A stretch of 64,000 nucleotides of DNA from Arcobacter nitrofigilis DSM 7299. Lineage in GTDB: Bacteria; Campylobacterota; Campylobacteria; Campylobacterales; Arcobacteraceae. The notes beneath the pieces are model-generated. The model worked only from the letters and a program-made list of their open reading frames with translations. It made no database searches and was not told the DNA's origin. Where the stretch lies: assembly GCF_000092245.1 (NCBI RefSeq), contig NC_014166.1, positions 2,852,001 through 2,916,000 of the forward strand, read 5' to 3'. Of the stretch, positions 40,639-45,633 are shown piece by piece. Position 1 is the stretch's first letter, and every line of letters begins with the position of its first letter. Both the position numbers and the translations under genes were made by a program.

Positions 40639-40896
40639 AAACTTTTTCATCTGAGAAATAGATTTCATCTGTTCTAAAATATTTTCTCTGTGAGTAAATA
40701 AAAAATTAGCATTTTTAAAAAGTAATTCTCTTAATTTTAAAAGTTCTTCATGGGATAATTCAAAGTCAGTAATATTTGTAGTAGTTAAATAAGTTTCAGT
40801 CCAAGACCTTAAGCCTTCTGCTCTTTCTTCTTCATCTAAAGAATCAACATAAGTTAATCTCTTTAGTGCTTCTAAAGACCAGTCTCGTCTTTCCAT
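40627..40896 (-). CDS. Hypothetical protein, possible flagellar export chaperone (FliT-like position)
   Basis: An 89-residue helical protein rich in Leu, Glu, Lys. It overlaps fliS by 25 bases and tilS by 12, so it is translated from the end of the flagellar unit. Small helical proteins after fliS are often FliT-type chaperones, but I see no clear FliT signature, only length and position. It begins with MERRDWSLEALKRLTYVDSLDEEERAEGLRSWTETYL. Called hypothetical. Confidence 0.65.
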   Translation of the reverse strand: MERRDWSLEALKRLTYVDSLDEEERAEGLRSWTETYLTTTNITDFELSHEELLKLRELLFKNANFLFTHRENILEQMKSISQMKKFLNK

Positions 40897-41228
40897 GCTT
40901 CTATTAGACCTTGAGTTACTTTTTTAACTTGGTGTATTAAATTTACATTATCATTAATGCCTGATGTAAAAAGTGTCTCTATTTGATAAAGATATAAACC
41001 ATCTAAATAATGAGCAATATCTCCCCCATCGAAATCTAATATATTTCTAAGTTCATCAAAAATTGCGATTGATTTGTTAATATAAATAAATTTTTCTTCA
41101 ACATCTCCATTTTCCATTGCTTCTTCTGCAAAAGATAGATATCTCAATAATCCCTCATAAAGCTTTAGTATTAAAACATAAGGATCATTACTAACTGCAT
41201 TTTGTTGATTATAAACCTCTATTCCCAC
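40872..41228 (-). CDS. fliS: Flagellar export chaperone FliS
   Basis: Cytoplasmic chaperone for flagellin. The 118-residue protein has the FliS features: N-terminal NAVSNDPYVLILKLYEGLLRYLSFAEEAMENGDVEEKFIYINKSIAIFDELRNIL, and helix ends with GDIAHYLDGLYLYQ. It lies after fliD, as in many bacteria, and overlaps the following small gene by 25 bases. Confidence 0.95.
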   Translation of the reverse strand: MGIEVYNQQNAVSNDPYVLILKLYEGLLRYLSFAEEAMENGDVEEKFIYINKSIAIFDELRNILDFDGGDIAHYLDGLYLYQIETLFTSGINDNVNLIHQVKKVTQGLIEAWKDETGL

Positions 41229-41279: not shown

Positions 41280-42881
41280 TTACTTAGAAGTGCTTTGTTT
41301 AATCATCATCTCCAAACTAGAAAATTGAGAATTAAACTGATTTATAATTACCCCATATGCCGAAAATTGATTTGCAAGTTGAGAATACTTTGAATCTAAA
41401 CTCTCTGTCTCTTTTGTCAATTGCATATCAAGTTCTTTCTTTCTTGATGTCATATTATCTTCATATGTAGTTATAGCACCATCAGTACCATCCATAGCAT
41501 CAACTATTGTTTTTAATTGTGTACCAAAGCCCTCTTTCTCAGCAGTTCCTATAAATAAATCTTTTAGATTATCAAAATCATCACTAACTGCTTTATTAAA
41601 ATCACTTTCATTTAATGAATAATTACCACTTTTATCAACTTCTAGTCCAAAATTAAATAGATTTAAACTACCTTCTTTAACAGGGTTTCCATCTGTACCA
41701 TCATTACTATCTTGACCATAATTTTTAAACATCATACTTTTTATTTGAGATAGTACATCCCTTAATGTTGATCTATCTTGTATTTTTGAATCACCTGAAT
41801 AAAGTTCAGCATCGATTGATTTAGATAAAGTATTAAATTTATCAATAAAATCTTTAAACAATGTCGCTATTTGTGATTTGTCTTTTTCAATAGAAATAGA
41901 TGAGTCCCCAACTTTAGAAGCAGAGATCTTCAATCCACCATCAACAGTTACAACATTTGAAGAAACATCATAATCAACACCATCAATTTTTGCTTTCAAA
42001 TTTTGTGCAGTTAAGGTGTGATTCTCATTGGTTAAATTTAAGCCTAAATCATCATTTGTAACTTCAACTGCACCTCCATCACTTTTTTTAATTATTACTT
42101 TACCATTGGCATCAATTGATGCATCAAATGAAGCATTATCATTAATTCTTGAAATAAATTCACTATTTGTTTCAGTACCATTAGTAGTAAAAGTTGTTCC
42201 ATTTAAAGTTAATGATAAATTAGCAGCTGGAACTGTTCCTGAAGCAATTGTTGAACTAGAAATAAAATTATTAAGCCCTAAATCAGAACCAGTTTGAGTT
42301 ATACTTAAAGCATTATCAACACCTGAATCTTCACTTTTTATAACCATTCTATAAGAATCTGTTCCTACTGCTTCTATTGAAGCATTTAATTTTGAACTCA
42401 AATTAATCTTATCAGCTACTTCTTGATATGTTTTATTAAAAGTTGAATACTCAACTCCATTTATTGTTATCATAGAGCCTGATGTAGTTGAAATTATTGC
42501 ATCTTTATCAGTAAATGTTGAAGTTTGATAAACATCCCTTTGGGCAATTTGACTTACACTTACATTTGTAGTTCCTGTATTTAATTTGCTTGCATCAACA
42601 GCATCAAAAACTACAGAATCACCTGTAGTTGTAGCTGATTTCTGATTGAAAGCATTTACTCCACCTATTGCAAATAAATCAAAGGGTTTAATTGCATCAA
42701 GTACATCCTGAACTTGTAATTTAATATTTGCAACTTTTACACCTTCTTCATCCAAGTCTTTTAAACTTGTTTCAATAGGTTCTACTGTAGCTTTTCTCTC
42801 TGCTGCTTTTAATTTATCAATTAACTCTTGATTTAAAGAAGAAGCTTGCCCTGTTCCTAATCCTAATACACCCTCAGCCAT
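41280..42881 (-). CDS. fliD: Flagellar hook-associated protein 2 (filament cap)
   Basis: A 533-residue FliD that forms the cap at the filament tip. It opens MAEGVLGLGTGQASSLNQELIDKLKAAERK, the typical FliD N-terminal helix, and ends with a coiled coil MTSRKKELDMQLTKETESLDSKYSQLANQFSAYGVIINQFNSQFSSLEMMIKQS. The middle is beta-rich and Ser/Thr/Asp-rich as expected. It lies between flgK and fliS. Confidence 0.95.
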   Translation of the reverse strand: MAEGVLGLGTGQASSLNQELIDKLKAAERKATVEPIETSLKDLDEEGVKVANIKLQVQDVLDAIKPFDLFAIGGVNAFNQKSATTTGDSVVFDAVDASKLNTGTTNVSVSQIAQRDVYQTSTFTDKDAIISTTSGSMITINGVEYSTFNKTYQEVADKINLSSKLNASIEAVGTDSYRMVIKSEDSGVDNALSITQTGSDLGLNNFISSSTIASGTVPAANLSLTLNGTTFTTNGTETNSEFISRINDNASFDASIDANGKVIIKKSDGGAVEVTNDDLGLNLTNENHTLTAQNLKAKIDGVDYDVSSNVVTVDGGLKISASKVGDSSISIEKDKSQIATLFKDFIDKFNTLSKSIDAELYSGDSKIQDRSTLRDVLSQIKSMMFKNYGQDSNDGTDGNPVKEGSLNLFNFGLEVDKSGNYSLNESDFNKAVSDDFDNLKDLFIGTAEKEGFGTQLKTIVDAMDGTDGAITTYEDNMTSRKKELDMQLTKETESLDSKYSQLANQFSAYGVIINQFNSQFSSLEMMIKQSTSK

Positions 42882-42891
42882 AATTTACTCC

Positions 42892-45633
42892 TTATCTCTT
42901 GATTCCAAGAAGAGTTTTTAACATTTCATCAACAGTTGTTATCATTTTTGCATTTGCAGAATATGCTGATTGAAATTTTATTAAATTAATCATCTCTTCA
43001 TCATTATCAACTTTTGTTACTAAATCATATGAATTATTCATAGATTCGCTAACTGCCTTTTGAGTCTCAACTGTAGAGTCACTACTCTCTTTATCCCTTG
43101 ATATATTTATTCTAAGATTTTGCATATATCCTGAAAAAGAAGTGGTTTCTGTATCACTTGAAACTTTATCATTTGATTTATCTTGTCCATAACCCAAAAA
43201 TGAAATATTTTCACTCCATTGATTACTTGCTAAATAATCATAGTCTTTTTGTTTTAAGGAACCTACAACATCAGAATTAAACTTCATTGTTCTTACACTA
43301 GAACCACTAAATAAATCTATATCATCAGCAACTCTTATATCACTGTCCGTTGCGATTTCACCATTTACATAAGTTCCATCATCATTTTTAATATAACTTG
43401 AAGTCATATCAACAAAAGTTTTTGCAAAAGCATCTAATGCATCTTTGTATTCTTGAAATTTGTTTTTCCCAGAATCAGTAGTTAAATTTTCTACTATTGC
43501 TTTTAACTTTCCACTTGTAAGAGTTATTGGTTGATCAAGAGAAGTTATACTTACAGCAGAATTTGCCAAATCACTTCTTTTCTCATTTTTATAAATAGAA
43601 TTTGAAACAACTCCTTCTTTATTATTTATAACTATACTTGATGTCATAGTAACAGGTGTTAAACCACTAGGTGCAGCATTATCTGTTATTGAAAAACTAT
43701 ATGTTTGATCTGTATTAACAGGAGCTAGATTATTTGTATCTGTAGTAAAGCTAAAACTCTTAATACCAGGTGGAATAGTTATTTCTCCAGTTTGGGCATC
43801 ATAAGTTATAGAATCAGGTATAAATTTAGGTGTCAAATCAAAATAACTACCAGTATCATCACTAAAAGATACTTTCATTACTTGTGCTGTTGTTGTCGTA
43901 TTTTTCAATTCAACAGTATGTGTAATACTACTTCCATCAACTGCACTTAAACTTTTTATAGAACTAACTTGTGTTGTTCCACTAGCTTGTGTAGCTCCTG
44001 TAGCTGGATTAACAGTAGGAATTGCACTAACTAACGGATTCGAATTTGTATTTTCCGTTGAAACTTCAAAACTTTGTGTTATATCTTTACCATCATTTAC
44101 AACATTAAGTACAGAAGTAATATTACTAGTATTTGACCCACTTGTTTCTGTTAAAGATAAAGTATATTCTTGATTAACTCCAAATAAAGCAGCTGCAGCT
44201 TCAGGACTTCCTGCTTCACCTTCAGCTGAATTAAGAGTTATAGAAAATGAATCTATCCCTGCAGGAACTGTAAGTTTTTTTGTACTAGCATTATAAGTAA
44301 CACTTGGTGGAACAAACGTTGGCACAGCTCCTGATGTTGAAGGATTACTCGATAAATCAATATCAAAAACTTCAGAAGATGTTGTAGTTGCCCCTAAATT
44401 TACTGTGTGAGTTAAACTTAAGCCATCATCTGCAATTTTACTCTCAATTGAAACTGAATTATTATTAATTACTGGGCTAACTGTAACTGTACCTTGATTT
44501 ATAGAGTATGGTTCTTCTGTAAAAGTAACTCTACTGTCAAATTTACCTTCAATCCCTGGAGTTTTTGATTCAACGAGTAAAAACATATCTTGACTATTAA
44601 TAGTAGATTTATTGCCATATTTATCAACATCATAGGTACCATTATAAGCTTTTACTTTTTCTGCTAAAGGTGAATTATTAATTTTATGAATAAGTGCTCT
44701 TACATAATTAGTCTCATCTACTTTTACAACTTGATCTTGCCCGTCACCATTAAGGTCAAAGACCATTGTTTCACCATATTCTACACTAACTGAGTTTTTA
44801 TTATCTAATTCAAAAGTAATTACATCTTCTTCATCAAAAGTATCATTAGGACCTAAAATACTGCTTTTACTTCCTTCTTCTGTAATATATCTATCTATTT
44901 GTGCTTTATTATCTTCACCGACTTTTAGTTTAGATATCATTGTATTTGAAACAACTGTTGTATTACCAATTTTTAATTCATAAAAGTCAGGATCTCTACT
45001 TACCGTTATATTAGCATATGTTGATATTTGTTTTTCTAATAAATCTCTTTTATCAAGTAGTTCATTAGAAGCATGACCTTGTTTCTTAATTTCTAGATTA
45101 ATATTCTGAATTTGTTCAAGTTTTGAATTAATTTGATTAACATCTTCAGTTAAAGACTGTTGAAAAACAGCTTCTTGATTTTCTATTCCATCATATAAAT
45201 TATTTAAATCATCTACTACTTTTTGCCCAGTAATTTTTAATTGATTTTTATAGACTTCATTATTTGGATTTGCTCTTATACTCTCCATTGTTTGAAAATA
45301 TTTATCTAAATCAGTTGAGAATCCTGCAGTATCTGTTTCTTTAAATACATCTTCAATATTCCCTAACATCGTAGATAATTCTGATTGATAGCTTTCTTTA
45401 GTATTTTGTTTTATAATATTGTCATAAAGATATTCGCTAGTGATTCTAATAGTATTACCAACTGTTACACCACGACCCAATTTACTGCCAGGTAGTTGAT
45501 CTGTTTCACTTGTTTCTACAACTCTTTTTTTATACCCTTCAGTGTTAACATTTGCAATATTATTCATTGTATTTTCAACAGCCGTTTGTGCTGCTTTTAA
45601 ACCTGACTGAGCTATATTTAATGAATCTAGCAT
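42892..45633 (-). CDS. flgK: Flagellar hook-associated protein 1, enlarged with two adhesin-like repeats
   Basis: A 913-residue FlgK, well above the usual 500-700. N-terminal domain MLDSLNIAQSGLKAAQTAVENTMNNIANVNTEGYKK and C-terminal NLIKFQSAYSANAKMITTVDEMLKTLLG form the D0/D1 core. Residues about 395-515 and 558-676 hold two homologous beta-rich repeats with FVPPSVTYNASTKKLTVPAGIDSF and FIPDSITYDAQTGEITIPPGIKSF in matched positions. They resemble Ig-like repeats from large adhesins. They are placed in the surface-exposed part, so they would project outward at the hook-filament junction. Confidence 0.95.
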   Translation of the reverse strand: MLDSLNIAQSGLKAAQTAVENTMNNIANVNTEGYKKRVVETSETDQLPGSKLGRGVTVGNTIRITSEYLYDNIIKQNTKESYQSELSTMLGNIEDVFKETDTAGFSTDLDKYFQTMESIRANPNNEVYKNQLKITGQKVVDDLNNLYDGIENQEAVFQQSLTEDVNQINSKLEQIQNINLEIKKQGHASNELLDKRDLLEKQISTYANITVSRDPDFYELKIGNTTVVSNTMISKLKVGEDNKAQIDRYITEEGSKSSILGPNDTFDEEDVITFELDNKNSVSVEYGETMVFDLNGDGQDQVVKVDETNYVRALIHKINNSPLAEKVKAYNGTYDVDKYGNKSTINSQDMFLLVESKTPGIEGKFDSRVTFTEEPYSINQGTVTVSPVINNNSVSIESKIADDGLSLTHTVNLGATTTSSEVFDIDLSSNPSTSGAVPTFVPPSVTYNASTKKLTVPAGIDSFSITLNSAEGEAGSPEAAAALFGVNQEYTLSLTETSGSNTSNITSVLNVVNDGKDITQSFEVSTENTNSNPLVSAIPTVNPATGATQASGTTQVSSIKSLSAVDGSSITHTVELKNTTTTAQVMKVSFSDDTGSYFDLTPKFIPDSITYDAQTGEITIPPGIKSFSFTTDTNNLAPVNTDQTYSFSITDNAAPSGLTPVTMTSSIVINNKEGVVSNSIYKNEKRSDLANSAVSITSLDQPITLTSGKLKAIVENLTTDSGKNKFQEYKDALDAFAKTFVDMTSSYIKNDDGTYVNGEIATDSDIRVADDIDLFSGSSVRTMKFNSDVVGSLKQKDYDYLASNQWSENISFLGYGQDKSNDKVSSDTETTSFSGYMQNLRINISRDKESSDSTVETQKAVSESMNNSYDLVTKVDNDEEMINLIKFQSAYSANAKMITTVDEMLKTLLGIKR
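43606..43962 (-). repeat. Second adhesin-like repeat within FlgK (residues ~558-676)
   Basis: Encodes IKSLSAVDGSSITHTVEL through ITDNAAPSG...INNKEG. Contains ITYDAQTGEITIPPGIKSFSF, which lines up with the same segment of the first repeat. Boundaries are approximate. Confidence 0.75.
44089..44451 (-). repeat. First adhesin-like repeat within FlgK (residues ~395-515)
   Basis: Encodes SIESKIADDGLSLTHTVNL through ITSVLNVVNDG. Contains VTYNASTKKLTVPAGIDSFSI, which lines up with the second repeat. Boundaries are approximate. Confidence 0.75.

Follow-up and report, generated by a model that had tools for sequence, protein, structure and literature searches.

FlgK with an extra outer domain, domain insertions in flagellin and adhesion by FliD are already known. 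The FlgK of Burkholderia pseudomallei (4ut1) is enlarged by an additional outer domain, D3, which continues from D2 and has the fold of D2 (PMC5691160). In giant flagellins and flagellinolysin, domains have been inserted or duplicated in the outer part of an axial protein of the flagellum, in this case flagellin, which is present in thousands of copies (PMC6248924, PMC5595980). FliD, the filament cap, is a hook-associated protein described as an adhesin, and in H. pylori it has the extra outer domains D4/D5 (PMC8306008). An earlier note on the present DNA held that a hook-associated adhesin would be new, which is too strong in view of FliD. In the literature searched (most subscription journals lie outside it), nothing on point was found for FlgK as an adhesin or for FlgK with LapA/Calx-beta modules. 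Nor did the papers found describe recurrent use of one FlgK insertion site in Arcobacteraceae; both absences are weak evidence.

The FlgK reported here differs from each of these cases. Its insert lies in the equivalent of domain D1b and is related by sequence to adhesin repeats, and no extra domain continuing from D2, as in Burkholderia, was found. It is a junction protein of 11 copies rather than a flagellin, and a junction protein rather than a cap; no relation between the extra domains of FliD and the FlgK insert has been shown. Compared with the FlgKs of C. jejuni (5xbj/9gsx) and Salmonella (9go6), it shares the D0/D1 helices and both conserved ends (VIA Z 26.8 for the model against 5xbj and 27.4 against 9go6), but its D1b equivalent is longer by ~300 residues, and the whole protein has 913 aa where theirs have 608 and 553.

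FlgK and its insertion

The window (the whole stretch of DNA analysed, 64,000 nucleotides) covers bases 2852001-2916000 of a genome that consists of one 3.19 Mb contig and has Arcobacter-like relatives. It contains the following features.

42892..45633, (-) strand: flgK, hook-associated protein 1 (hook-filament junction), 913 aa; TIGR02492 241.3 bits; Flg_bb_rod, FlgK_D1 and Flg_bbr_C in order
43594..44502, (-) strand: whole FlgK insertion, residues ~378-680 (~300 residues), missing from ordinary Arcobacteraceae FlgK
44083..44451, (-) strand: repeat domain A, residues 395-517, predicted Ig-like, putatively LapA/Calx-beta-type; self-repeat; adhesin-repeat profile match 44227-44436; predicted beta strands 395-512
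43963..44082, (-) strand: linker between domains A and B, residues 518-557; low-confidence model, pLDDT <50 for 513-553
43606..43962, (-) strand: repeat domain B, residues 558-676, predicted Ig-like, putatively LapA/Calx-beta-type; self-repeat; adhesin-repeat profile match 43672-43944; model pLDDT 78.5, pTM 0.74
41280..42881, (-) strand: fliD (filament cap, HAP2), 533 aa, with FliD_N and FliD_C; immediately downstream of flgK
40872..41228, (-) strand: 118-aa ORF, putative FliS from its position downstream of fliD and its sequence

The length of 913 residues given in the earlier note is correct, and the protein passes the cut-off of the full-length NCBIfam FlgK profile TIGR02492 (170.75 bits). 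Its domains also place it in FlgK, with Flg_bb_rod at the N-terminus, the FlgK_D1 helices, and Flg_bbr_C at the C-terminus; helices are predicted at residues 2-27, 67-204, and 833-911.

FlgK matches were present in 92 of the 104 genomes of the family, and nearly all of those outside the genus span only residues 1-~375 and ~678-913. When 49 FlgKs were aligned, the ordinary ones proved to be 607-652 aa long, and residues ~378-680 are carried by just the three sequences of the same genus. Beyond the family, the FlgK-domain frames listed for the phylum are mostly 600-650 codons, with some of ~450-490 and a few of 720-735. Comparison of FlgK length and repeats among relatives, proposed in the earlier note, confines the insert to three genomes of one genus (the window's genome and two others), all of which have kept it together with its repeat. 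The segment is missing from every aligned FlgK outside the genus, which rules out ordinary D2/D3 domains. The earlier description of two segments inserted between conserved ends was right about the insertion; its span was too small, as the insertion really covers ~378-680, and the site appears to be inside the D1b-equivalent outer beta domain. In five genomes (G053, G056, G067, G068, and G001), the best FlgK match had E values of 1e-26 to 1e-52, far poorer than those of relatives, and these may possibly be divergent or replaced flagellar sets.

Placement of the insert on the junction ring can be estimated from homology and the model. Residues 223 and 285 of C. jejuni FlgK correspond to residues 215 and 701 of the window's protein (profile positions; the second alignment is weak by sequence), and the helix order in the model agrees (helix 190-204, then beta structure, then helices 709-717 and 725-745). 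Because it is flanked by these equivalents, the insert is assigned to the counterpart of D1b (residues 214-289 in C. jejuni), with the alpha4 equivalent on one side and the alpha6/7 equivalent on the other, and the D2 equivalent falls at ~746-832. In the ring model of C. jejuni, the outside is made up of D1b and D2 (PMC5691160). The insert would thus map to the outer side of the ring, in agreement with the protrusion at the hook-filament junction that had been predicted. With 11 FlgK per ring (PMC12221982), each flagellum would carry 22 extra Ig-like domains on the outside of its junction.

Tandem domains and giant adhesin repeats

The FlgK insert contains a tandem duplication. The two segments align with each other as the earlier note had seen: residues 395-517 against 558-673 gave a local alignment score of 172, while 1000 shuffles had a mean of 45 and a maximum of 81, with none reaching 172. 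The aligned stretch includes FVPPSVTYNASTKKLTVPAGIDSF in domain A and FIPDSITYDAQTGEITIPPGIKSF in domain B, and profile-profile comparison of the domains gave 40% identity over 96 columns (P 2.9e-15). The same repeat is found in the two other genomes of the genus, with scores of 172 and 127 that no shuffle reached.

AlphaFold2 predicted both domains as Ig-like beta-sandwiches, which bears out the Ig-like nature first suspected from the sequence; the scores listed above for domain B are from a model of that domain alone. Fold searches (Foldseek/VIA) returned many Ig-like proteins at Z 7-9, including adhesins and pilins, and CALX-CBD1 (3ead) was among them (Z 7.3, 102 residues). These matches are fold-level support only, because the Ig-like fold is common and unspecific, and they are no proof of function. 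Foldseek with the whole FlgK model was discarded as functional evidence, as its non-flagellar matches were generic tandem Ig-like proteins.

LapA/Calx-beta-type repeats (PF20579, PF03160) are found in giant RTX/type I-secreted adhesins, and in many genomes of the family, proteins of 2000-8000 codons are filled with such repeats. A profile built from the six domains of the genus (two per FlgK, three genomes) matched, outside FlgK, repeat proteins of 1.7-5 kaa in relatives (E 1e-8 to 1e-5). These include a 4991-codon frame in genome G005 (13 matches, best E 1.4e-8), and further matches were in frames of genomes G012, G102, G062, G235, G341, and G389. The repeats of these giant proteins, when aligned, have the form VEGEDLVYTVTLTN...PTFSDGVTY...GTITVPAGVTSFTVTVPTIDD...GTIIDND, and Pfam relates them to Calx-beta and LapA. 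A reverse profile was made solely of giant secreted-protein repeats from other genomes. In the window's genome, it matched domain B (window 43672-43944) at E 9.9e-9 and domain A (window 44227-44436) at E 2.2e-7. In each of the three genomes of the genus it gave exactly two matches at E up to 1, both of them to the FlgK domains, and it clearly picked only the three FlgKs of the genus among the 49. This result is the strongest evidence for a link to adhesin repeats, and the reciprocal profiles agree with the resemblance to large secreted adhesins proposed earlier.

Scores against shuffled sequences were uneven between the two domains. Against the foreign repeats, they scored 32 and 35 bits, and the maximum in 4000 shuffled copies was 12.6. 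Because these repeats had been picked for resemblance to the insert, a second set of broader scope makes the fairer test; with this set, domain B scored 19.1 bits, above the shuffle maximum of 13.5, but domain A scored 8.4 bits, inside the shuffle range, which counts against our reading. Identity of the FlgK domains to adhesin repeats is ~22-31%. Pfam and NCBIfam scans gave no accepted match to the FlgK inserts, a further point against it: Pfam scores were below every cut-off, those of PF20579 and PF03160 included, and the LapA model omits FlgK in the window's genome. Some of the giant adhesin repeats used for the profile likewise miss the Pfam cut-offs. Taken with the reciprocal matches, a relationship of the insert domains to LapA/Calx-beta-type adhesin repeats is supported at the level of sequence profiles.

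The FlgK domains and these repeats are alike in their reciprocal matches, ITVPAGVTSFTVTV core motif, predicted Ig-like fold, and tandem arrangement, but FlgK has two copies only, larger loops, and few of the acidic positions. The adhesin repeats keep, with few or no exceptions, a set of acidic residues that are putative Ca2+ ligands: DD following the core strand, E, and a terminal DND. In the FlgK domains, DD is replaced by N/E and a gap, or by G/Q; two E positions are P/L and Q/H; and the first D of DND is N or I, although the C-terminal columns are less surely aligned. A whole RTX adhesin has a retention module, many repeats in a long array, RTX, and a type I secretion signal at its C-terminus. 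This protein does not fit that description, as it has two repeats only and is FlgK at both ends. The domains would be exported within FlgK by the flagellar system, in contrast to those of giant adhesins. The window's genome also encodes two giant LapA-domain repeat proteins, at G000:C1:1440000-1454000 (L063) and 2519000-2535000 (L064), in frames of 1574 and 2821 codons; neither contains repeats that match the FlgK insert.

Origin of the insert and insertions in related FlgKs

Purifying selection acts on the insert: its dN/dS is 0.16 and 0.29, compared with 0.15-0.27 for the FlgK core. The earlier note suggested domain transfer from an RTX-type adhesin. As a recent event this is not supported, given the low identity, a composition with no sharp anomaly in GC or GC3, and the failure to find a donor: a scan of 84,980 genomes returned only a contig of Arcobacter sp. 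BM504, which is a genome of the same genus, and viral contigs had no match to the insert. A copy of another protein in the same genome was also rejected. The insert matched nothing but itself in its own genome (E up to 10), it had no match to the genome's two LapA-containing giant proteins or its flagellins, and blastp of the inserts against its own hook-region and FlgL-like ORFs found none.

Insertions are also found in other FlgKs of the Arcobacteraceae. In genus g9, five FlgKs (L012, L040, L034, L039, and L041; 714-870 aa) are interrupted at the position that the window's insert occupies; their Flagellin_IN-like inserts, ~110 or ~266 aa long, are related to one another but not to that of the window. 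Elsewhere in the family, an insert follows residue 267 in three FlgKs and residue 765 in another. One of these, in genome G054 (L042:1504-3774), has a 139-aa insert after window-equivalent residue 267. This insert and a surface repeat of a large flagellin (L094, 873-codon frame) in G063, which belongs to the same genus as G054, have 45% identity over 142 aa (E 1e-28); FlgK and flagellin thus share a surface module there. By these alignments, the outer face of FlgK appears as an insertion hotspot in related proteins.

Simple enlargement of FlgK along with flagellin was rejected. Long FlgK and large flagellin are weakly associated (Fisher p 0.28; Spearman 0.32 with p 0.03, before any correction for phylogeny), and other genera combine a large flagellin with an ordinary FlgK, or the reverse. 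The inserts do not simply track flagellin or filament size, which counts against the structural reading given below. In the window's genome, outside the window (G000:C1:2938500-2944500, L091), two tandem flagellin genes encode ~500 aa, compared with ~290 in most relatives. In a genome of the same genus (G033:C4:208500-213500, L093), one of two flagellin genes is present as two frames of 239 + 261 codons, possibly from a frameshift or an assembly error. No match to FlgE_D2 turned up in the 12 genomes searched for it.

Role of the insert at the junction

Repeats of the extender type in studied RTX adhesins act as spacers for ligand-binding domains, and Ca2+ in their linkers stiffens them (PMC7493085). 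We think it probable that a tandem Ig-like pair of the giant-adhesin repeat class was inserted in the ancestor of the genus into the outer D1b-type beta domain of an otherwise normal junction subunit, lost most of the acidic residues that are invariant in its class, and was kept by purifying selection as a structural element. The pair from each of the 11 subunits would serve as spacer or collar arms that enlarge the outer surface of the junction beside hook and filament. An outward spacer or collar is preferred because the adhesin relatives are extenders and the acidic residues have been replaced. Docking of the C. jejuni FlgK ring on the hook counts against it, since the ring was almost hidden by FlgE (PMC5691160).

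Direct binding of a surface or host ligand would make FlgK both junction protein and adhesin, as the earlier note proposed. The repeat class is common to giant secreted adhesin-like proteins, Foldseek/VIA list beta-sandwiches of adhesins and pilins (e.g., GspB, ACE, and CNA), and the hook-associated FliD is a known adhesin (PMC8306008). Yet the repeats to which the insert is related are extenders and do not themselves bind ligands (PMC7493085), Z values of 7-9 to beta-sandwich folds are common and show no function, only 11 FlgK copies sit near the base of each flagellum, and Pfam and NCBIfam scans matched no ligand-binding family. With the acidic residues mostly gone as well, the claim that FlgK doubles as an adhesin was not upheld; adhesion by the insert is possible but, in our estimate, unlikely.

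The outer D1b loop may instead accept almost any domain, so that the insert is a tolerated decoration with no selected role; unrelated inserts at the same site and two others in relatives would fit this, as would the fact that most relatives manage without one. Retention of the insert in 3/3 genomes with dN/dS near that of the FlgK core makes this, too, a doubtful explanation. Outer location and lineage-specific inserts are equally what would be expected if the insert masked or altered an exposed junction surface, as in antigenic or phage-receptor variation, but it evolves no faster than the core within the genus, and we regard this as very improbable. A broader and rather improbable proposal is that the FlgK outer face is a general display platform in Arcobacteraceae, with modules moving repeatedly among giant adhesins, flagellins, and FlgK, and the adhesin-type pair giving the junction a binding function here.

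The usual picture is of junction proteins as unchanging connectors, with flagellin as the variable surface. In this one family, the outer domain of the junction protein appears to have taken foreign modules several times independently, one class of them common to giant adhesins and another common to flagellin. An adaptable FlgK surface thereby becomes directly testable, and these proteins may be a natural model for domains displayed on a defined 11-copy ring.
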